Assembly: GCA_030698575.1 (NCBI GenBank)
Contig: JAUYMQ010000610.1
Location: 1-12,518 of the forward strand
DNA: 12,518 nt
Direction of reading: 5' to 3'
DNA from: Deltaproteobacteria bacterium
GTDB lineage: Bacteria; JAUYMQ01
The notes beneath the pieces were generated by a model. It did no database searches, had not been told where the DNA came from, and was given only the letters and a program-made list of their open reading frames with translations. The translations under genes were made by a program, and so were the position numbers. Positions within the stretch are counted from its first letter, which is position 1, and the number at the start of each line of letters is the position of its first letter. This document shows, in pieces, positions 57 through 12,518 of the stretch.

Positions 57-1295
57 ATGGCCAAGGATCGACGCGAGCCGAAGCAGCCCGGAGGGGGACG
101 TTCCGGGGAGAAGTCGCCGGACGGCAAGCCGGGAATAGGAACGCGGAGCGTGCGCGCCGGCGAGGATTCCCCGAACCCCTACCACTCCATCACCCAGCCC
201 ATCGTCCAGGCCGCCACCTACACGTTCCGCAACTCGGCCGAGCTGCTCGACTTCAAGGAAGGGCGAATCGAGCGCGACGAGTACGGCCGATACGGAAACC
301 CCACGGTCAGAGCGGTCGAGCGAAAGCTCGCGGCGCTGGACGAGGGCGAGGACGCGCTCCTTTTTTCTTCCGGCATGAGCGCGGTGACGACCACGCTGCT
401 GGCGTTCCTCGCCCCCGGTGCCCACATGATTCTCACCGAGGAGTGCTACCGGCGCACCCGGCAATTCTGCACGACTCTGCTCTCGCGTTACGGCGTCGAG
501 ACTTCTCTCGTGGCCCCGGGTGATGTCCAGCGGGTGGCTGCCCTCATCCGGCCCGAGACCCGCCTCATCCTGACCGAGTCGCCGACGAATCCCTACCTGC
601 ACGTCATCGATCTCGATGCGCTCACGGGCCTCGCCCGGGAGCGTGGCGTGAAGATCATGATCGACTCGACGTTCGCCACTCCCTACAACCAGCGGCCGCT
701 CACTTTCGGCGTCGATCTGGTGATACACAGCGGGACGAAGTACCTGGCGGGGCATAACGACGTGATGGCCGGGGCCGTTGTCGGCGGGGCGTCGCTCGTC
801 AGCGCGCTCCGTGATCTGCAGGGGATCCTCGGGTGTGTGCTCGATGCGCACGCCGCTTACCTCTTCCTTCGCGGACTCAAGACCTTCGAACTGCGCATGG
901 CACGCCACAACGAGAACGGCGCCGCGGTGGCGCGGTTCCTCGAATCGCACAGGAAGGTCCGGAAGGTCTATTACCCGGGCCTTGAAGGGCACCCTTCTTA
1001 CAAGGTGGCCCGGGAGCAGATGAGCGGCCACGGCGGCGTGGTGAGCTTCGAGATCGACGGCGACTTCGAGGCGTCGAACGCCTTCATCGACAGGCTTCGC
1101 ATCCCGCGCATCGCACCGAGCCTGGGGGGCGTGGAGAGCCTGGTCGAGAATGTGGCGCTGATGAGCTACTACGAACTCGGGCCGGAGGGGTGGCGCGAGA
1201 TGGGCATCGCCGACTCGCTGGTGCGCTACTCGGCGGGAATCGAGGACGCCGACGACATCATCGCGGATCTGAAGCAGAGCCTGGATCAGGTCTAG
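57..1295 (+). CDS. metB: Cystathionine gamma-synthase-type PLP enzyme (trans-sulfuration family)
   Basis: This 412-residue protein belongs to the Cys/Met-metabolism PLP-dependent family (fold type I). Members join cysteine to an activated homoserine (cystathionine gamma-synthase) or perform related beta- or gamma-eliminations in the cytoplasm. Visible hallmarks are YGRYGNPT at about 76-83 (Tyr/Arg contacts to PLP phosphate), SSGM at 104-107, the PLP-binding Asp in IDSTFATP (D203), and the Schiff-base lysine K228 in HSGTKYLAGHNDV. The AGHNDV wording and the ECYRRTR segment at about 129-135 resemble plant-type cystathionine gamma-synthases more than MetC lyases. This supports metB, but specificity (MetB, MetZ, MetC or a methionine gamma-lyase) cannot be settled from sequence alone. 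The first 28 residues are a Lys/Gly/Pro-rich extension of no clear function. The ATG at 57 has a modest GGGA six bases upstream. The gene ends in TAG with a TAA five codons later, and it converges on gspM. It has no evident link to secretion. Confidence 0.88.
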   Translation: MAKDRREPKQPGGGRSGEKSPDGKPGIGTRSVRAGEDSPNPYHSITQPIVQAATYTFRNSAELLDFKEGRIERDEYGRYGNPTVRAVERKLAALDEGEDALLFSSGMSAVTTTLLAFLAPGAHMILTEECYRRTRQFCTTLLSRYGVETSLVAPGDVQRVAALIRPETRLILTESPTNPYLHVIDLDALTGLARERGVKIMIDSTFATPYNQRPLTFGVDLVIHSGTKYLAGHNDVMAGAVVGGASLVSALRDLQGILGCVLDAHAAYLFLRGLKTFELRMARHNENGAAVARFLESHRKVRKVYYPGLEGHPSYKVAREQMSGHGGVVSFEIDGDFEASNAFIDRLRIPRIAPSLGGVESLVENVALMSYYELGPEGWREMGIADSLVRYSAGIEDADDIIADLKQSLDQV

Positions 1296-2025: not shown

Positions 2026-3642
2026 TCAGGTCCCCTCCCCGCCGTCGGCGGCGGGCGCCGCGGCAGGCGGTGGTGCCTCGGGCCGCACCTCGCGCGAACC
2101 CATGGTGATCGTGACGTCGAAGCTCTTGCCGCCGCCCCGGTCGGCCTGAACCTGCCCCACGTTGACTTCCTTGAAGAAAGGGATCTTCTCGAGCTCGGAC
2201 TTGACGCGCTCGGCCAGTTCGAAACTCTGCGTGATGCCCTGGAGGCGAATGCGGTCCTCGTCAATCGAGAGCATGCTCAGAGTGACATCCAGCCCGGGGG
2301 GAACACGGCTCGAAATCTCGCGAAGCACGTCGAGTGCGGTCACGTTGCCGGCGTAGAGCCCCAGGGTCTCGGTGCGGCGCTTCATCTCGGCCAGGCTCAG
2401 GCGCATCTGGGCCAGCGGATCGACGATGCGGGTGACATTGGGGTTCGTCTCGCGAAATACCTGCTCGATGCGGGCATCGATCTCCGCGCTGATCGCGCGG
2501 TTCTTCATCGTCTTGACGACAACGCTTCCGATCAGGAGCAGGAGGAGCGCCGTCGCTATGACCAGGCTCGGCATGAATTTCCGCCGGACAACGTCGAAGT
2601 CCCGGCGGTAAACGAACTCTTCGCGGCGCAGGTTGAGCTCGGAGACGGGCGCCGCGAGCGAGCCGCGAAGCGAAAGGCCCAGCGCCTGGGGCAGGATGGG
2701 CACTTCGTCCGCGCTCACCCGCCATATGAGCCGCTCGTCATTTCGCAGTGCCATTGGCGCGCAGGGGATGCCCACCCTGTCCTGAAGGAATTCCGCCATC
2801 CCTCGCGCCCGGGAAGTGCCTCCACAGAGGATTAGCTTGTCGGGGCGGCCGAGCTTGGTGTTCTCGGGGGCGGCGAGCGTGCGGTCGATTTCCTGCGCGA
2901 GGCGGTCGAGGGTCCGGGCGAAGACAGGCGTGGAACGCCCAAGCAGGCTGAGCCCCTCCTCGTGCTTGCGGCGCTCGGCCTCGGCAAGCTCGGCGCCGAG
3001 ATCCTGGGCCAGCGCGGCTGTCAGCGCCTTTCCTCCTATGGGAATGGTGCGGACCGAGTGAAGCTTGCGGTCGCGCAATCCGCTGAGGCAGGTCTTCTCG
3101 TGACCCAGATCGACGAGGAAGATGTACCCCTCTCCTCCCTCGATGAAGGGCGCGACGTTGGCGAGGGCGGTCGCGTCGAGCTCGAGAACTCGCGGATCGA
3201 CACCGCCCGATTCGAGCGTAGCCAGCAGATCTCCCAGCGCATCGCGCTGCACGAGTCCAACGAGCACGTCGGCGCCGGCCGCAGAGCGCTCGATCACCTG
3301 GTAGTCGAGAACCAGGTCTTCGATCTCGTAGGGTACTTGCGACTCGACCTCGAAGGGCACCGCCTGGCGGATCTTCTTCAGGTCACCGAAGGGTAGATGA
3401 AGCCGGCGGAAGGAGGCCATCTGGCCGGGGAACGCGCAAATCAAATCGGCGCCGGCAAGGTCTTCGTTCTGGCGGTACTTGGTAATGGCGCGCCGGATGG
3501 TTTCGGCGGCGCTTTCGTCGCTCGCGGCGTCCCTCGGCATCTGCATGAATCGGCGCACCTCGAGCCGACCCAGCCCGCCGCGGCTCAGGACCGCCTTCAC
3601 GCTGTAGCTTCCGATGTCGAGACCGAGCACGCGTCGATACAA
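2026..3642 (-). CDS. gspL: Type II secretion system protein GspL, PilM-like plus PilN-like fusion
   Basis: This 538-residue protein is the assembly-platform partner of GspE and GspM. Residues about 4-330 form an actin/PilM-like ATPase fold: phosphate-1 loop LGLDIGSYSVKAVL (6-19), phosphate-2 region FLVDLGHEKTCLSGL (175-189) and adenosine motif LILCGGTSRARG (270-281). Next come the PilN-like motif ELNLRREEF (335-343), one membrane helix at about 358-376, a coiled coil at about 380-425, and a PilN-like periplasmic domain at about 430-515 with a Pro/Ala tail. Textbook GspL proteins are nearer 400 residues with a less complete actin-like domain, so this copy looks like PilM and PilN of type IV pilus systems joined together. 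The start is TTG (3642..3640), supported by GGAG (3651..3654) eight bases upstream. A GTG four codons later is the alternative. The gene is separated from gspK by 138 bases and is followed after one base by gspM. Confidence 0.9.
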   Translation of the reverse strand: MYRRVLGLDIGSYSVKAVLSRGGLGRLEVRRFMQMPRDAASDESAAETIRRAITKYRQNEDLAGADLICAFPGQMASFRRLHLPFGDLKKIRQAVPFEVESQVPYEIEDLVLDYQVIERSAAGADVLVGLVQRDALGDLLATLESGGVDPRVLELDATALANVAPFIEGGEGYIFLVDLGHEKTCLSGLRDRKLHSVRTIPIGGKALTAALAQDLGAELAEAERRKHEEGLSLLGRSTPVFARTLDRLAQEIDRTLAAPENTKLGRPDKLILCGGTSRARGMAEFLQDRVGIPCAPMALRNDERLIWRVSADEVPILPQALGLSLRGSLAAPVSELNLRREEFVYRRDFDVVRRKFMPSLVIATALLLLLIGSVVVKTMKNRAISAEIDARIEQVFRETNPNVTRIVDPLAQMRLSLAEMKRRTETLGLYAGNVTALDVLREISSRVPPGLDVTLSMLSIDEDRIRLQGITQSFELAERVKSELEKIPFFKEVNVGQVQADRGGGKSFDVTITMGSREVRPEAPPPAAAPAADGGEGT

Positions 3643-3780: not shown

Positions 3781-4932
3781 TCAATCCATCCGCCAGTAGA
3801 GCACCCGGGGCTGGCCATCCTTGCGCTCAATGACCGCATCGAGCCGCGAGCGGCTCTCGTTCACTCGCGCCACGGCCCGGATGCGGAAGACATTGCTGGC
3901 GAACCCGAGCGTGGGCGAAAAGGCCGTTGTGGGATCCACACCGAGAAGATCCCGGAATTCCGTCAGATCGGCAATCCCGATGCCTTGTTTACGGGCATCG
4001 AGAATACGGCCCACGCTCTCCTCGCTGAGCGGCTCGGGTGAGGATGTGGCGTCGTTCTCGCGCATGCCGATTGAACGGAGCACGCGCTCGGGCGCCGTGT
4101 TTACGTTGATCGCCCCGCCCCCGTCAAAGGGGTAGACCGTCACCGCGTCGCGAATAAGGGCGAAGAGCTTGTCGTCGACGCCCTCCACGAGTTGCAGTTC
4201 CGCCACTGAATCGAAAGGGCCGTTCTTTGAGGAGTAGGCATCTTTCAGGCTGTTGTAATACTGATCCTCGAAGCTGCCGTCCGAGAGCCGCGTCTCGTCG
4301 CCGTCGACCCAGTCGGCCACGGCGTAGGCGAAGTCTTCTCCGTCGAAATCCTTGATTTCCCCCTCGTCCTTCCGGTCGAGCGAATCCAGCGCCTCCTGCA
4401 CCAGGATCTTCAGCTCGTCGAACACCGGCCGGTTGAGCTTCTGGGCGCCCGAGGCGTCGCGGATGATGATGGCGTTCACATTGACCCTGCCTGCGAGATC
4501 GTCCACCTCGACACGGAGCGACTCATTGGGCCGGAGCTGCAAATCGAGAAGATCCATTCGTGCCCAGGATTCCTGGAGTGTGTCGATCCCCGAAGCGCCG
4601 GCAGGCGCCCCCGCCTTTTTGCTCTTCTCCGTCGCGTCTGCTTCGTCGCGGGCCTTTTGCAGGAGTTCACTGACGGCTGTGTTCTCGGCCGGTGCGCCGC
4701 CCGTTCCCCCGCTCTCTGTCGCCGCCGCCGCGTCGTCCAGAAGGAGGCTGAGCGCGATCTCGTAACCCGATCGCGAGAGCGCGGATGCAAGCGCGGTGTC
4801 GCGCACATTGGCCGAAAGGCGCGAGTCGAGCCGCGTTCTGAAGCTGAAATCGATGATAACGGCCGTGAGCAGAGTGATAACGAGCACCACCATCAGAAGC
4901 GCGACGCCCCGCTCGCCATCACGGTTTCGCAT
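3781..4932 (-). CDS. gspK: Type II secretion minor pseudopilin GspK
   Basis: This 383-residue protein is the large tip pseudopilin. A short leader ends in ERG (residues 7-9), then a hydrophobic helix beginning VALLMVVLV runs to about residue 29. The usual Glu at mature position 5 is absent (Met here), as is typical of GspK and linked to its place at the pseudopilus tip. Family motifs include DLAGRVNVN (145-153), ADWVDGDETRLSDGSF with its acidic metal-site-like cluster (206-221), and the helix-hairpin-helix-like NVNTAPERVLRS (276-287). Residues about 66-118 are an Ala/Gly/Glu/Lys-rich low-complexity insertion between the helix and the globular domain. The ATG at 4932 is chosen because GGAGG lies five bases upstream and the leader length is normal. 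It overlaps the end of gspJ by 14 bases. Longer in-frame starts up to 5055 give only Arg/Pro-rich sequence inside gspJ. Confidence 0.92.
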   Translation of the reverse strand: MRNRDGERGVALLMVVLVITLLTAVIIDFSFRTRLDSRLSANVRDTALASALSRSGYEIALSLLLDDAAAATESGGTGGAPAENTAVSELLQKARDEADATEKSKKAGAPAGASGIDTLQESWARMDLLDLQLRPNESLRVEVDDLAGRVNVNAIIIRDASGAQKLNRPVFDELKILVQEALDSLDRKDEGEIKDFDGEDFAYAVADWVDGDETRLSDGSFEDQYYNSLKDAYSSKNGPFDSVAELQLVEGVDDKLFALIRDAVTVYPFDGGGAINVNTAPERVLRSIGMRENDATSSPEPLSEESVGRILDARKQGIGIADLTEFRDLLGVDPTTAFSPTLGFASNVFRIRAVARVNESRSRLDAVIERKDGQPRVLYWRMD

Positions 4933-6414: not shown

Positions 6415-7076
6415 CGCCGATCCTCCCGCATCTCAACGTCGAATTGGACGTGTCCCGGCAGCACCTTTACCCGGCCGCTCACGGGCGAGGCGTAGAGCGT
6501 GTACTCGGCGCCACGCCTGTCGGCCATGTAGATCACGGTCGGCTCGACATAGCCGTCGGGAAAGAAATGGGTGTAGGCCTCTCCATCCGTTGTCTCCTCG
6601 ATGTACTGGGTTTCCACCGAGGTGATGATCACGCCTGCAGGAAGATTGACAGGTTGGGAGAGGATGCTCCGGTCGGCGACGTAGTAGGGGACGCCGGCCT
6701 CCTCGCCGCCGTTCCCGGCTCCCTCCTCGCTGCCGCTGTTGTCCCCCTCTTCGCCCCCCGGCTCGTCATCGTCGCCTGCCGGGTCCACGAAGCGATCGAG
6801 CCAGTAACGCGATGAGGCGAGATCGTATGTGAGACGCAGGGTCTCGTGGCGGAACACCGACTGGTGGAAGACATGCTCGATGGTGGCGGCAAGGCTGATC
6901 GCGCTGCGCTTGAGATCGGCGTGGGTGCGTTCGCGGAACTGCGGGAGCGCGAGCGTGAAAAGGAGCCCGATAACCACCAGCACCGCCACCATCTCGATGA
7001 GGGTGAAGCCGCGGGCGTCAGTCGCCCGGCGCAGCCGGGCGGGGGGTGATACGGCGTCGCGGGGGCCCCGGGTCAT
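6411..7076 (-). CDS. gspH: Type II secretion minor pseudopilin GspH
   Basis: This 221-residue protein has a leader ending in ARG (21-23), then FTLIEMVAVLVVIGLLFTLALP, a clear prepilin site with Glu5 and membrane helix. The C-terminal half holds beta-strand-like segments ending in a VSGRVKVLPG-type element (about 199-208), as in GspH/FimT-like pseudopilins. GspH joins the major GspG filament to the I-J-K tip. Residues about 101-128 form a strongly acidic, Gly-rich loop (DDDEPGGEEGDNSGSEEG). The ATG at 7076 overlaps the gspG stop as ATGA. No convincing Shine-Dalgarno precedes it, so translation probably depends on ribosomes finishing gspG. The amber codon in gspG might therefore lower gspH output too. 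The gene name fits both sequence type and operon position; a GspG-like or FimT-like label is the alternative. Confidence 0.88.
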   Translation of the reverse strand: MTRGPRDAVSPPARLRRATDARGFTLIEMVAVLVVIGLLFTLALPQFRERTHADLKRSAISLAATIEHVFHQSVFRHETLRLTYDLASSRYWLDRFVDPAGDDDEPGGEEGDNSGSEEGAGNGGEEAGVPYYVADRSILSQPVNLPAGVIITSVETQYIEETTDGEAYTHFFPDGYVEPTVIYMADRRGAEYTLYASPVSGRVKVLPGHVQFDVEMREDRR

Positions 7077-7642
7077 CGGGCGGCGGTGGACTGGCCTTCG
7101 TCCGGCGCGGCCTGCCAGTTGCCGATGTCGGCGCTCTCGCCGTCGCCCCCGTCCTGGCCGTCCTTGCCCCGCGTCCAGACATCGAAGCTGTCGGCGTTGC
7201 GAACACCGGGGCTCATGTACAGGTAGTCGTTGCCCCAGCGGTCCTTCGGCACGGCGCTCTGGCCCTTCAGGTACGGGCCGTTCCAGGCCGAGGGCGCCGG
7301 CTCACTGGTGGGCTTCAGAAGGAGCGACTCCAGCCCTTGCTCAGTGGTCGGGTAGAAACCGTTGTCGAGGCGGTACTGTGCGAGCGCGGTTTCGAGTCCC
7401 CCGATGTCGGCCCTGGATTTTACAATCTCGGCGGTGCCGAGCTGCTAGGTCAGGTTGGTGGCCACCACCGTCAGCAGGAGGCCGATGATGACGACCACGA
7501 CCATGATCTCGATCAAGGTGAAGCCCGATTGCGCTTTAGCCAGCCGCTCCAGCGCGCCTGCCGGGCGCGGCGTGGCCGCATTGACGCGCGCTTCTCCGGC
7601 GCGCCATCCGTCGAATGAGAAAACTTCGGAATTGATTTTCAT
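7073..7642 (-). CDS. gspG: Major pseudopilin GspG, interrupted by one in-frame amber codon
   Basis: GspG is the main subunit of the periplasmic pseudopilus. The frame runs from the ATG at 7642 (GAGAGG nine bases upstream) to TGA at 7073..7075, 189 codons before the stop. Codon 66 is TAG (7445..7447). Before it lie an unusually long 40-residue leader ending QSG, then FTLIEIMVVVVIIGLLLTVV, the cleavage site with Glu5 and the membrane helix. After it the frame stays open for 123 codons with the GspG core: ALAQYRLDNGFYPTTEQGLE (86-105), KDRWGNDYLYMSPG and the acidic calcium-site-like end KDGQDGGDGESADIGNW (about 160-176). Nothing else is broken. The final TGA overlaps the gspH ATG. As read, translation gives a 65-residue fragment lacking the globular domain, and no good internal start follows. 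Explanations are a sequencing or assembly error, a real recent nonsense mutation (for example CAG to TAG), or UAG readthrough. TAG also ends neighbouring genes here. Confidence 0.9.
7427..7441 (-). other. Hairpin three bases downstream of the gspG amber codon
   Basis: On the minus strand the bases after TAG read CAG, then CTCGGC, ACC, GCCGAG. That is a perfect 6-pair GC-rich stem with a 3-base loop starting three bases after the stop. Stems close behind a stop codon are known in some recoding signals. Here the same bases encode Leu-Gly-Thr-Ala-Glu in a GC-rich gene, so chance is a fair explanation. Confidence 0.35.
7445..7447 (-). other. In-frame UAG codon inside gspG
   Basis: The codon sits between Thr65 and Gln67 of GspG, at the junction of the N-terminal helix and the globular domain. 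Codons on both sides read as normal GspG sequence in one frame, so a single substitution, not an indel, explains the break. UAG is used as a normal final stop by the metB-like gene (1293..1295), gspE (9025..9027) and gspD (10802..10804), which argues against genome-wide reassignment. Confidence 0.9.
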
Positions 7643-7700: not shown

Positions 7701-8954
7701 TCACGCGATGATCTGGTTGATGTTGAAGATGGGAATCAGGATTGAAACGATGATCACGCCGACGATCCCCGCCATCACGAGGATCATCATCGGCTCGAGC
7801 CATGAAGTCATCTTTGCGATCGTGGTCTCGACCTCATTGTCGTAAGCCTCGGCGACCTTCGATAGCATTCCCTCCAGTTCGCCCGATCGCTCTCCGATCG
7901 CGATCATGTGCGTGAGGAGCGGCGGAAACTGCCCGCTTCGGGCGAGCGGCTGGGCGACGCTTGCTCCCTCCGTGATGCTCTCGCGTGCCTCGTCCAGCGC
8001 CTTCTCCAGGACCGCATTATCGACAATATTGCGCACGATTTCGAGGCACCGGATCAGCGGAATTCCACTGGCCAGAAGTGTCGAGAGCGTTTTCGAGAAC
8101 CGGGCCACGGCGATGATTCGCACGAGGTGCCCCACCACCGGAACCTTCAGGGTGAAGGCATCCCACACGGGCCGGCCCTGCTCGCCGGCTTTCCACCTCT
8201 GGAACAGCGCCGTGACCAGAAGTGCGGCCCCCGCCACGGCCCACCAAAAGCGCGCCATGAAATCCGAGACCTTGATGAGGATCACGGTCGCGAGGGGCAG
8301 CGGCTGATTGAGGCTCTTGAAGATCTCCGTGAGCTTGGGCACGACGAAGGTTACGAGCACTGCGATGAAGACCGTGGCCATGACCGTCATCACCACGGGA
8401 TAGACGGTGGCCGCCGAGATCTTGTTTTGAAGCCGCACCTGGCTCTCGAGGTAGTCGGCCAGACGATCCAGGACGATTTCGAGCGCGCCGCCGGCCTCTC
8501 CCGCGCGGATCATGTTCACGTAGAGGGGCGAGAAGATGCTTCCGTGCTGGGCCATGGCGTCCGCGAGAGAAACCCCCTCGTTCACGCGCTGGCGAATCTG
8601 CCCGATCGCCAACTGGAGCTTGGGATTGTCCACCTGATCGATGAGAGCGGTCAGCGCCTCGACCAGCGGGATCCCGGCGCCGACCAGAGTCGAGAGCTGC
8701 CGCGTGACAATGGCCTTGTCGCTCTCGCTCACGCGGGTGAGAAGTTGTGTGAGGGAGAACTGCTTCCCGAGAGCCTCGCCGATGAGGGCGCTCGAGGCCA
8801 CGCCGCGGAGATTCTGTCGCTCCTCGTTCAGCTCGGTTGTGAAGATTCCCGAGCGGCGGAGCTTCTGCCGTGCCGTCTTGGGCGTGTCGGCGTCGATGAT
8901 CCCATGGGTGCTGTTACCCGAGGCGTCGAGCCCCTTGTACGCGTAGACTGCCAT
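7701..8954 (-). CDS. gspF: Type II secretion inner-membrane platform protein GspF
   Basis: This 417-residue protein is the polytopic core of the inner-membrane platform. It begins MAVYAYKGLDASGN, the usual GspF start. It has two T2SSF repeats, at about 77-200 and 280-402, each with an LxxGIPLxxxL element (VGAGIPLVEAL at 91-101 and LASGIPLIRCL at 294-304) and a GExxGxLE-like element (AGEAGGALE at 151-159 and IGERSGELE at 353-361). Membrane helices lie at about 184-206, 236-252 and 388-411, and the length is close to the family norm. The ATG at 8954 is chosen because the family N-terminus starts there. A longer in-frame start at 9104 adds an Arg-rich stretch overlapping gspE. GGGAG about 13 bases upstream is the best ribosome-binding site. 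Spacing is 70 bases after gspE and 58 before gspG. Confidence 0.95.
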   Translation of the reverse strand: MAVYAYKGLDASGNSTHGIIDADTPKTARQKLRRSGIFTTELNEERQNLRGVASSALIGEALGKQFSLTQLLTRVSESDKAIVTRQLSTLVGAGIPLVEALTALIDQVDNPKLQLAIGQIRQRVNEGVSLADAMAQHGSIFSPLYVNMIRAGEAGGALEIVLDRLADYLESQVRLQNKISAATVYPVVMTVMATVFIAVLVTFVVPKLTEIFKSLNQPLPLATVILIKVSDFMARFWWAVAGAALLVTALFQRWKAGEQGRPVWDAFTLKVPVVGHLVRIIAVARFSKTLSTLLASGIPLIRCLEIVRNIVDNAVLEKALDEARESITEGASVAQPLARSGQFPPLLTHMIAIGERSGELEGMLSKVAEAYDNEVETTIAKMTSWLEPMMILVMAGIVGVIIVSILIPIFNINQIIA

Positions 8955-9024: not shown

Positions 9025-10779
9025 CTAGTTGATCTCGTCGTCCGACGTGACGCGCAGCACTTCCTCGATGGTCGTCGCGCCGGCCACCACGCGGCGAGCT
9101 CCATCCATGCGCAGCGTCCGCATGCCGTTCCGGAGCGCCACCTGCTTGATCGTGCCGGAGTCGGCGTTCTTGAGAATCAGTTTTCGCACGGCGTCGTCGA
9201 CGAGCATCAGTTCGTAGATGGCGGACCGGCCGGAATAGCCTGTGTTCTTGCACCGCTCGCACCCGTTCGCCCGCATCACCGCGCCGCTACCGCCGTTCGC
9301 CTGCGTGAGTCCCAGCTGCTGCAGTTCCAGCTCCGTCAGATTGCTCTCCTCCGCGCAGTTCCTGCAAGCGAGCCGGACGAGGCGCTGGGCGTAGATGGCG
9401 ACGAGTGAGCTGGCCACGAGAAAGGGCTCGATCCCCATGTCGATGAGGCGCGTGACGGCGCCGGCGGCATCGTTCGTGTGGAGCGTGCTGAACACGAGGT
9501 GGCCCGTGAGGGACGCCTGGATGGCGATCTCGGCGGTCTCGGTGTCGCGCGTCTCCCCAATCAGAATCACGTCGGGATCCTGGCGGAGGATCGACCGGAG
9601 CGCGTTCGCGAAAGTCAGATTGATCTTGGGGTTCACCTGGATCTGGCCGATCCCCGCGAGCTGGTACTCCACCGGATCCTCGACCGTGATGATGTTCTTG
9701 TCAGGCGTGTTGATCGTCTGCAGCGCCGCGTAGAGCGTCGTGGTCTTGCCGCTTCCGGTGGGGCCCGTCACCAGGATGATGCCGTGGCTTCGCCGGATCA
9801 GCTTTTCCGTTACCGCGAGGTGATCGGGCATGAGCCCGATCTCGGAGAGATCCAGGAGAATATTCGAGCGATCGAGGAGGCGCATCACGATCCGCTCGCC
9901 GAAAGTCGTCGGGATGGTCGAGAGGCGGATGTCAACGTCGCGGCCGGCGATCTTGATGCCTATGCGCCCGTCCTGCGGCAGCCGTTTCTCGGCGATGTTC
10001 AGGCGTCCCATGATCTTCACGCGCGAGGCGATGCTCGACTGGAGGCGCTTCGGCGGCTTCAGCACCTCGTAGAGGATTCCGTCGATGCGGTAGCGCACGA
10101 CGAGCTCCTTCTCGAAGGGCTCGATGTGCACGTCGCTCGCCCGGTCCTTCACGGCCTGGTAGAGCAGCGAATTGACCAGGCGGATGATCGGCGCTTCGTC
10201 GGCGGCGTCGAGGAGATCCTGCGGCTCCTCGAACTCGGCGGTGGAAAGCCCGATGAGCTCGTGGCCTTCGAGATCCTCGATTGCTTCCTGCGTGGCGCCC
10301 GACTCGCGCTGATAGACCAGGTTGATCGCATTGAGGATGACGCCGGGCTTCGCCAGCACGACCTCGACATCGGTCTGGAGCAGCATGCGCACGTCGTCGA
10401 GCGCGTAGAAATCCAGCGGATCGGCCATGGCGATGGTGGCCGTGCCGTCCTTCTGGCGGAGCGGGATGAGCGTGTACTGCTTGGCGAAGTTGATGGGGAT
10501 CTTGGCGACCAGCTCTGGATCAATGTCCTCCAGCGCGATCTTGGGAAGAAACTCGATGCTCATCTGCTCGCCGAGGGCTTCGAGGAGGTTTTCCTCGCTG
10601 ATGGCCTTCATGCCGAGCAGGATCTGCCCCAGCCTTCCGCCCTTCTCGATCTGGATACTGCGTGCCTCGTCAATCTGATCGTCGGTGAGGCCCATGCGCT
10701 GCTTGAGAATCGCCGCCAGGGGCTGCCTGCTCGTCGCCACGTTGCCACTCGCTTCCAGGGCCACTTTTCGCGAAACCAC
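9025..10779 (-). CDS. gspE: Type II secretion cytoplasmic ATPase GspE
   Basis: This is the hexameric secretion ATPase of the PulE/VirB11 family, which powers pseudopilus assembly through GspL and GspF. Counting from the GTG start (584 residues), the N-terminal GspE-N/MshEN-type domain spans about 20-150. The catalytic domain has DGILYEV (233-239), Walker A GPTGSGKTTT (339-348), an Asp-box region around ITVEDPVEYQ (364-373), Walker B DVILIGETRD (403-412) and His-box STLHTNDAAG (431-440). A zinc-binding four-cysteine module follows, CRNC at 472-475 and CERC at 507-510, separated by a 31-residue loop. The start is GTG at 10779, with AAAGG ten bases upstream and 22 bases after the gspD stop. An ATG at 10842 would overlap gspD by about 40 bases and adds Ser/Pro-rich residues. 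The C-terminus ends in TAG. All key catalytic motifs are present, so it should be active. Confidence 0.95.
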   Translation of the reverse strand: MVSRKVALEASGNVATSRQPLAAILKQRMGLTDDQIDEARSIQIEKGGRLGQILLGMKAISEENLLEALGEQMSIEFLPKIALEDIDPELVAKIPINFAKQYTLIPLRQKDGTATIAMADPLDFYALDDVRMLLQTDVEVVLAKPGVILNAINLVYQRESGATQEAIEDLEGHELIGLSTAEFEEPQDLLDAADEAPIIRLVNSLLYQAVKDRASDVHIEPFEKELVVRYRIDGILYEVLKPPKRLQSSIASRVKIMGRLNIAEKRLPQDGRIGIKIAGRDVDIRLSTIPTTFGERIVMRLLDRSNILLDLSEIGLMPDHLAVTEKLIRRSHGIILVTGPTGSGKTTTLYAALQTINTPDKNIITVEDPVEYQLAGIGQIQVNPKINLTFANALRSILRQDPDVILIGETRDTETAEIAIQASLTGHLVFSTLHTNDAAGAVTRLIDMGIEPFLVASSLVAIYAQRLVRLACRNCAEESNLTELELQQLGLTQANGGSGAVMRANGCERCKNTGYSGRSAIYELMLVDDAVRKLILKNADSGTIKQVALRNGMRTLRMDGARRVVAGATTIEEVLRVTSDDEIN

Positions 10780-10801
10780 GGCCCTGATACCTTTGGGGGG
10801 T

Positions 10802-12518
10802 CTACTCGGAAAGCTCCACGACGAAGGGGACAGCCCCGTCATCGTGAAATTCCTTCGCCAGTTTCGACGCGACCCGGCTCGCCTCGGAGTCCTTGTCGAA
10901 TCGCCCGACGCGCACGCGGTGGGCGACGGCGCCTTCGTCCGTGACGGCCGAACTCAGGTAGACGTCGTACTTCTGGGCCCGGAGCTTGTCCACCAGGTTT
11001 TCCGCCTGATCGCGGTCGGTGAAGGCGCCCACCTGCACGGTGAAGCCTCCCGGCTCCGGCACCGCGCTCGTTTCGGGCGCGGGTGCCGCTGCGGCCAGCT
11101 TTGCCGGCGGCTCGGTGGCGTCTCCGGCTTCGCTCGCGCCATCGTTCAGCACGCCGCCCGTCACGTCGTCCTCCGCCGGGGCCTTCGCCTCGGGCGCGCC
11201 GCCGATGACTTCTTCCTTGCGGCCGGGGCTGGCCTTGGGCGCCGCTGCGTCGGGCGAGGCGCCCTCCGTCAGGTTCTTCTGCTTGATGTCCTTCAGGGCC
11301 TCGTCGATGGGGCTCCGCCGGCGGCGCAGGTCGTATTCCTCTTCATACTCGTCGAGGGTCTTCCCCTCGGCCGCGGCCTTTGTTTCCTTTTCCCTTTCCT
11401 CCCGCTCCTCCTTGTCGGTCTTCCGGAGCGCCTCGCGGGACTTCGCCTCGAACTCCTTCTGCTTGTAGTTGGTCACCTGCCGGAGATCGTCGGGGGTGCG
11501 GATGATGTGGGGCGTCAGGAAGACGATGAGGTTCACCTTGCGCATCGTCTTCGATTTGTTCTTGAAGGCCCAGCCGAGGCCCGGGATGTCGCCCAGCCAG
11601 GGCACGCGGTTCGAGGACTTCCCGAGGCTCGAGGAGATGATGCCGCCGATGACCACCGTCGCCGCGTCGGCGACATAGACCGTGTTCTTGATGGAACGTT
11701 TCGTGAGGATGGGGAGGCCCAGCTCCCCGCCCGCCACCTCGGTGATCTCGTTCTCGATGTCGAGGCGGACACTGTTCCCCTCGCTGATCTGGGGGGTGAC
11801 GCGCAGGATGACGCCCACGTCCTGCCGCTCGAAGGAGTTGTTGACCAGCGTGTTGTCGTCCACAATTCCGGTGCCGGAGGTGGTACTCGAGATTGCGGCG
11901 GTCTGGATGGGGATGTTCTGGCCGACCTGGATCTCCGCCTCCTCGTTGTCGGTCGTCAGGATGTTGGGAGAGGAAAGGATGTTCGTGTCTGTCCTGGCGG
12001 CCGACGCCTGGATCACCGCGCGGATGACCGGCACCGGGACAACCTTCTCTGTCACTACGCCCGTAACGGGGTCCGTCTCCTTGATTTTGACGTTGACCGC
12101 GTGGAAGCCGGAAACCAGCGCTCCGAAGAGCGGATCGAGGCCGGCCGCCCCTCCGCCGCTCAGGATGGTGTCCAGCTCACCCCCATCGATGATTCCCGGC
12201 GTACCCGTGGCGGGGAAGGTGGACCCGAAGATCCCGCCCTTCTTGGGATCGTTGTTGTCGAAGAAACTCCCTCCGGCCAGGCCTACGCCCGTGTTCAAGG
12301 TATTCGGCCCGACGCTCACCTCGAGGATGAGGGCCTCGACGAGCACCTGGGGGCGCTTGATGTCGAGCTTGGCGATGACCTGCCGCAAGGTCTCGTAGGC
12401 TTCCGGCGGCGCCTCGATGATGAGCGCGTTGGTCGGGGCGTCGAAGGCGATCTTCACGTTCTCGGCGAGCTGAGCCACCGTGGCGACCACGGCCGCCGGC
12501 ACGCCTTCGGGCGCCCCG
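10802..12518 (-). CDS. gspD: Outer-membrane secretin GspD with C-terminal SPOR domain (5' partial)
   Basis: The frame is open to the window edge, so signal peptide and domains N0 to N2 are outside. The 571 visible residues start in the last N domain (FDAPTNALIIEAPPEAYETL). The secretin domain runs from RPQVLVEALILEVSV (about 57-71) to VNLIVFLTPHIIRTPDD, and includes NILSSPNILTTDNEEAEI, the DVGVILRVTPQIS strand and the VPWLGDIPGLGWAF signature. It forms the outer-membrane channel through which folded exoproteins leave. After it come a charged, probably helical stretch (rich in Glu, Lys and Arg) and an Ala/Pro/Glu-rich linker of together about 110 residues. The last 80 or so residues (bases about 10805..11050) match a SPOR domain: FTVQVGAFTDRDQAENLVDK, then HRVRVGRFDKDSEASRVA. 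SPOR domains bind denuded peptidoglycan glycans. This domain would sit where pilotin-binding S domains lie in other secretins. The gene stops in TAG, 22 bases before gspE. Confidence 0.93.
   Translation of the reverse strand, partial: GAPEGVPAAVVATVAQLAENVKIAFDAPTNALIIEAPPEAYETLRQVIAKLDIKRPQVLVEALILEVSVGPNTLNTGVGLAGGSFFDNNDPKKGGIFGSTFPATGTPGIIDGGELDTILSGGGAAGLDPLFGALVSGFHAVNVKIKETDPVTGVVTEKVVPVPVIRAVIQASAARTDTNILSSPNILTTDNEEAEIQVGQNIPIQTAAISSTTSGTGIVDDNTLVNNSFERQDVGVILRVTPQISEGNSVRLDIENEITEVAGGELGLPILTKRSIKNTVYVADAATVVIGGIISSSLGKSSNRVPWLGDIPGLGWAFKNKSKTMRKVNLIVFLTPHIIRTPDDLRQVTNYKQKEFEAKSREALRKTDKEEREEREKETKAAAEGKTLDEYEEEYDLRRRRSPIDEALKDIKQKNLTEGASPDAAAPKASPGRKEEVIGGAPEAKAPAEDDVTGGVLNDGASEAGDATEPPAKLAAAAPAPETSAVPEPGGFTVQVGAFTDRDQAENLVDKLRAQKYDVYLSSAVTDEGAVAHRVRVGRFDKDSEASRVASKLAKEFHDDGAVPFVVELSE

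Follow-up and report, generated by a model that had tools for sequence, protein, structure and literature searches.

The major pseudopilin of type II secretion, GspG, is defined by the families TIGR01710 and PF08334. One of the three stop codons, UAG, is also the codon of pyrrolysine. A pyrrolysine system has been described in some marine deltaproteobacteria (Kivenson et al. 2021, PMC8318568), and single stop codons within otherwise conserved bacterial genes were collected by Belinky et al. (2021, PMC7918605), who kept only stops found at the same position in at least two genomes to exclude sequencing error. In the literature on nonsense errors in metagenome-assembled genomes, we found nothing directly usable.

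The gspG gene described here lies in a 12,518-nucleotide window, by which we mean the whole stretch of DNA analysed. It is like described GspG genes in its full-length match to TIGR01710 and PF08334, its prepilin motif and its place in the order gspD-E-F-G-H-I-J-K-L-M, and it differs from them in that a single TAG breaks its frame 3' of the region for the N-terminal helix. As in the set of Belinky et al. (PMC7918605), a single stop interrupts an otherwise conserved gene; however, here it was seen in one genome. With pyrrolysine recoding in bacteria (PMC8318568), the locus shares a UAG inside a gene, whereas here no match to a pyl gene reaches its cut-off, the interrupted gene is not that of a methylamine methyltransferase, and TAG is a common terminator. 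We put the probability at about 90% that the gspG TAG is an isolated base substitution in an otherwise normal gene, with no amino acid inserted at it. The features discussed are listed in Table 1.

Table 1. Positions of the interrupted gspG gene, of TAG-terminated genes in the window, and of other genes with in-frame stops in the same draft assembly.
Feature	Location	Positions	Strand	Remarks or basis
gspG, type II secretion major pseudopilin, interrupted frame	window	7073..7642	-	ORF reading and domain matches
In-frame TAG, codon 66, context ACC TAG CAG	window	7445..7447	-	sequence
gspG 5' of TAG: leader, GFTLIE cleavage/methylation motif, hydrophobic helix; 65 codons	window	7448..7642	-	PF07963, TIGR02532
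gspG 3' of TAG: GspG globular domain, conserved, undamaged; 123 codons	window	7076..7444	-	PF08334, residues 63-176
gspE	window	9025..10842	-	own terminator TAG 9027..9025; reading UAG would add 36 codons
gspD, clipped at contig end	window	10802..12502	-	own terminator TAG 10804..10802; reading UAG would add 43 codons
metC-like gene (PLP-dependent cystathionine gamma-synthase/beta-lyase-like)	window	57..1295	+	ends in TAG, reading it would add 5 codons; sequence resemblance, no family search
hisF, single-copy in assembly, TAG at Glu of GAGEILLTS motif	L246 (G000:C490)	hisF 3209..2451, TAG 2702	-	
PEP-CTERM protein gene within run of similar genes, TAG; adjacent paralogue intact	L173 (G000:C335)	13061	+	
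Phage gene near contig end, TAG	L182 (G000:C1)			
Histone-deacetylase-like gene, TAA		90 bases from contig end		
Arsenite-methyltransferase-like gene, TGA at expected Cys of DLWAG(C)IAGAL	L243	940	+	

We found that the gspG frame opens at ATG 7642 and runs through 65 sense codons, the TAG (7447..7445) and 123 further sense codons to a TGA (7075..7073) that overlaps the ATG of gspH at 7076. If the TAG is taken to stand for a residue, the translation is an equivalog-level, full-length match to TIGR01710 (161.8 bits versus a cut-off of 88.85; profile positions 1-134 of 134). PF08334 is likewise matched over all 108 model positions (E = 5.6e-35, 121.4 bits), and the TAG falls inside this match. 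Hence, the frame spanning the TAG is no chance open reading frame. The prepilin peptidase cleavage/methylation motif and the hydrophobic helix are also present (PF07963 at residues 36-60 and TIGR02532 at residues 38-60); the interruption of the frame is the one respect in which the gene departs from a GspG. The original prediction of a frame that continues past the TAG, keeps the GspG domain and ends on the gspH start codon was therefore borne out by both the sequence and the two families.

No ATG, GTG or TTG occurs in frame in the 45 codons 3' of the TAG, so re-initiation cannot easily make the second half of the protein. We found no second lesion in the gene, and codon usage 3' of the TAG is still typical. 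The TAG lies about 5 kb inside its 12.5-kb contig, away from the ends, a point against the reading that we prefer below. A search of the assembly with PF08334 returned no second true gspG, a check that the original prediction had named; the other matches, on contigs C265 and C597, are more divergent pseudopilin-like proteins.

The neighbours of gspG are gspM, gspL (PilM-like), gspK, gspJ, gspI, gspH, gspF, gspE and gspD. Every other gsp gene had been taken to be uninterrupted, and this holds for those present; it does not extend to the whole type II secretion system, as the N-terminus of gspD is cut off and gspC is absent from the window.

The draft assembly comprises 4.13 Mb in 653 contigs, with 91.6% completeness and 4.6% contamination. 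From it, we took an 831-kb sample, in which about 724 kb was called coding, as 684 coding segments, by a dicodon model with a best-frame test. Among the 600 predicted genes with a stop in this sample, 360 end in TGA (60%), 168 in TAG (about 28%) and 72 in TAA. A UAG reassigned to sense would be expected to be rare or absent as a terminator; TAG is neither, and we rejected genome-wide reassignment because of this share. The gene pairs ribH/nusB, hslV/hslU and rplO/secY are each separated in frame by a single TAG only; hence, efficient decoding of UAG would remove the sole in-frame stop and fuse them. A search of the assembly for the PCRF domain gave no match for either RF1 or RF2, despite the 91.6% completeness. 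Since RF2 must exist where 60% of genes end in TGA, the lack of both factors probably reflects missing sequence in the draft, and nothing on the loss of RF1 follows from it.

Across about 105 GspG homologues, nearly all of which are 31-53% identical to the protein, we found Ser (36) and Gly (34) most often at position 66, along with Pro, Asp, Arg, Asn, Ala, Gln, Glu and Lys. Judged from this alignment, the position is variable and tolerant, neither catalytic nor conserved in GspG, and nothing about it points to a special residue. The best GspG relatives (from GTDB r220 or the distant set; 44-53% identical) have a sense codon at the place of the TAG. No close relative with the same TAG was found, the nearest GspG compared being only 44-53% identical.

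We also surveyed the 831-kb sample for other genes interrupted by same-frame stops, using a best-frame score filter followed by reading by eye; this census is partial and of limited sensitivity. Including gspG, five isolated nonsense codons were found, four TAG and one TAA, in unrelated genes (Table 1). The interrupted hisF is adjoined by an intact hisA-like gene. The contig with the interrupted phage gene (L182) and L193 are phage-like contigs binned with the genome, and the other long frames of L182 have no internal TAG. The arsenite-methyltransferase-like gene was left out of the count. The related NCBIfam families are selenoproteins, but no tRNA-Sec reaching the cut-off was found in the assembly; the gene may be a selenoprotein or an error.

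By codon usage, the substitutions per codon that give a stop amount to 0.239/3. Five nonsense codons in about 241,000 codons then correspond to about 2.6e-4 substitutions per base, a rough lower bound from a partial scan. Such a rate is plausible for a draft consensus. Codon usage further predicts that TAG makes up 50-56% of random nonsense changes, so the observed four of five is within expectation (p about 0.27, binomial). We found no interruptions of the frameshift type in the sample, in which the candidates were ordinary gene junctions and sensitivity for frameshifts is limited; hence, base substitutions fit better than general gene decay. Taken together, scattered lone substitutions in unrelated genes, with no frameshifts and in a fragmented draft, are what consensus or strain errors would be expected to leave. 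More generally, recoding should be proposed for a single in-frame stop in a fragmented draft only after comparison with how often such stops occur in the rest of that assembly.

On the reading that we prefer, a single-base substitution would have put the TAG at codon 66 of gspG. We infer that this base is either young or absent from most of the living cells. For its origin, we favour an error in the consensus of the fragmented draft or a base from a minority strain. A genuine null allele, newly arisen in the population that was sequenced, is possible and distinctly less likely; if the TAG is genuine and unread, the product would be the leader and N-terminal helix of the pseudopilin only, and the secretion system would be non-working in that strain. 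Both origins had been among the options of the original prediction, and the otherwise undamaged gene, the 653-contig draft and the same kind of lesion in unrelated genes speak for them. Its further option, readthrough of the UAG, did not fare as well, given that TAG terminates gspD and gspE in the same operon, that no pyl gene scores above cut-off and none of the detected tRNAs carries a CUA anticodon, and that the residue is tolerant of change. The observation stands and is an ordinary one, and the recoding reading is unsupported.

Weak amber decoding is, of the alternatives to an undecoded substitution, the one that survives best, and we consider it very unlikely. In one form, the TAG would be genuine and a suppressor or near-cognate tRNA would read it to a low or moderate extent, with little full-length GspG made; in another, held equally improbable, the lineage has a weak natural amber-decoding tRNA that is missing from the draft, so that interrupted genes such as gspG and hisF yield less product and UAG is still a usual terminator. 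Four of the five nonsense interruptions are TAG, two of them in the single-copy conserved genes gspG and hisF, which would suit such decoding; however, most random nonsense changes here are expected to be TAG. Conserved in-frame stops with purifying selection downstream have been reported in bacteria (PMC7918605), but about 28% of the predicted genes in the sample end in TAG, including gspE and gspD of the very operon in question, and efficient reading would fuse the three gene pairs named above. Because TAG would have to serve as both terminator and sense codon in one operon, and the decoding tRNA was not found, we give functional readthrough little credence. If UAG were decoded here, the bacterium would be a new case, one in which a frequent terminator is also read within essential or operon-critical genes.

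The tRNA evidence comes from a search with RF00005, which gave 42 candidates; their anticodons were assigned by ARAGORN for 41 and by eye for one, a degenerate Lys-like tRNA. None of the 42 has a CUA anticodon, in a set that is incomplete (no tRNA for Trp or Phe was called) and from a model that may miss tRNA-Pyl. Since a suppressor could thus be missing from the set, the absence of a CUA tRNA is moderate evidence against decoding.

An old pseudogene, in a lineage that has lost type II secretion, is a shade less likely again. Such a loss begins with a single nonsense codon, as seen here, but gspG has no second lesion, the other gsp genes are open, and the codon usage downstream of the TAG is that of a typical gene.

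Pyrrolysine at the gspG TAG has next to no chance and was rejected on the searches for its machinery: UAG is its codon and some marine deltaproteobacteria have the system (PMC8318568), but in this 91.6% complete genome the best matches to the PylS C-terminal domain and to PylD reach 25.5 and 21.1 bits versus cut-offs of 178.15 and 150.05, which the Methanosarcina control genome passes, and position 66 is not catalytic or conserved in GspG.

Three of the detected tRNAs are unusual. Two Leu-like tRNAs (L166, minus strand, 3917..3834, and L171, plus strand, 8067..8150) have long variable arms, C33, and the anticodons CUC and CAC; the five usual tRNA-Leu anticodons are all present beside them. These two tRNAs may be non-functional, may cause missense reading or may have a role outside translation. 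The Lys-like tRNA (TTT; L172, plus strand, 2901-2956) is degenerate, with its 3' half unpaired, as if truncated or disrupted.

In the window itself, the secretin encoded by gspD carries a C-terminal SPOR (peptidoglycan-binding) domain at residues 484-551 (58.6 bits), which, to our knowledge, GspD proteins do not usually have.
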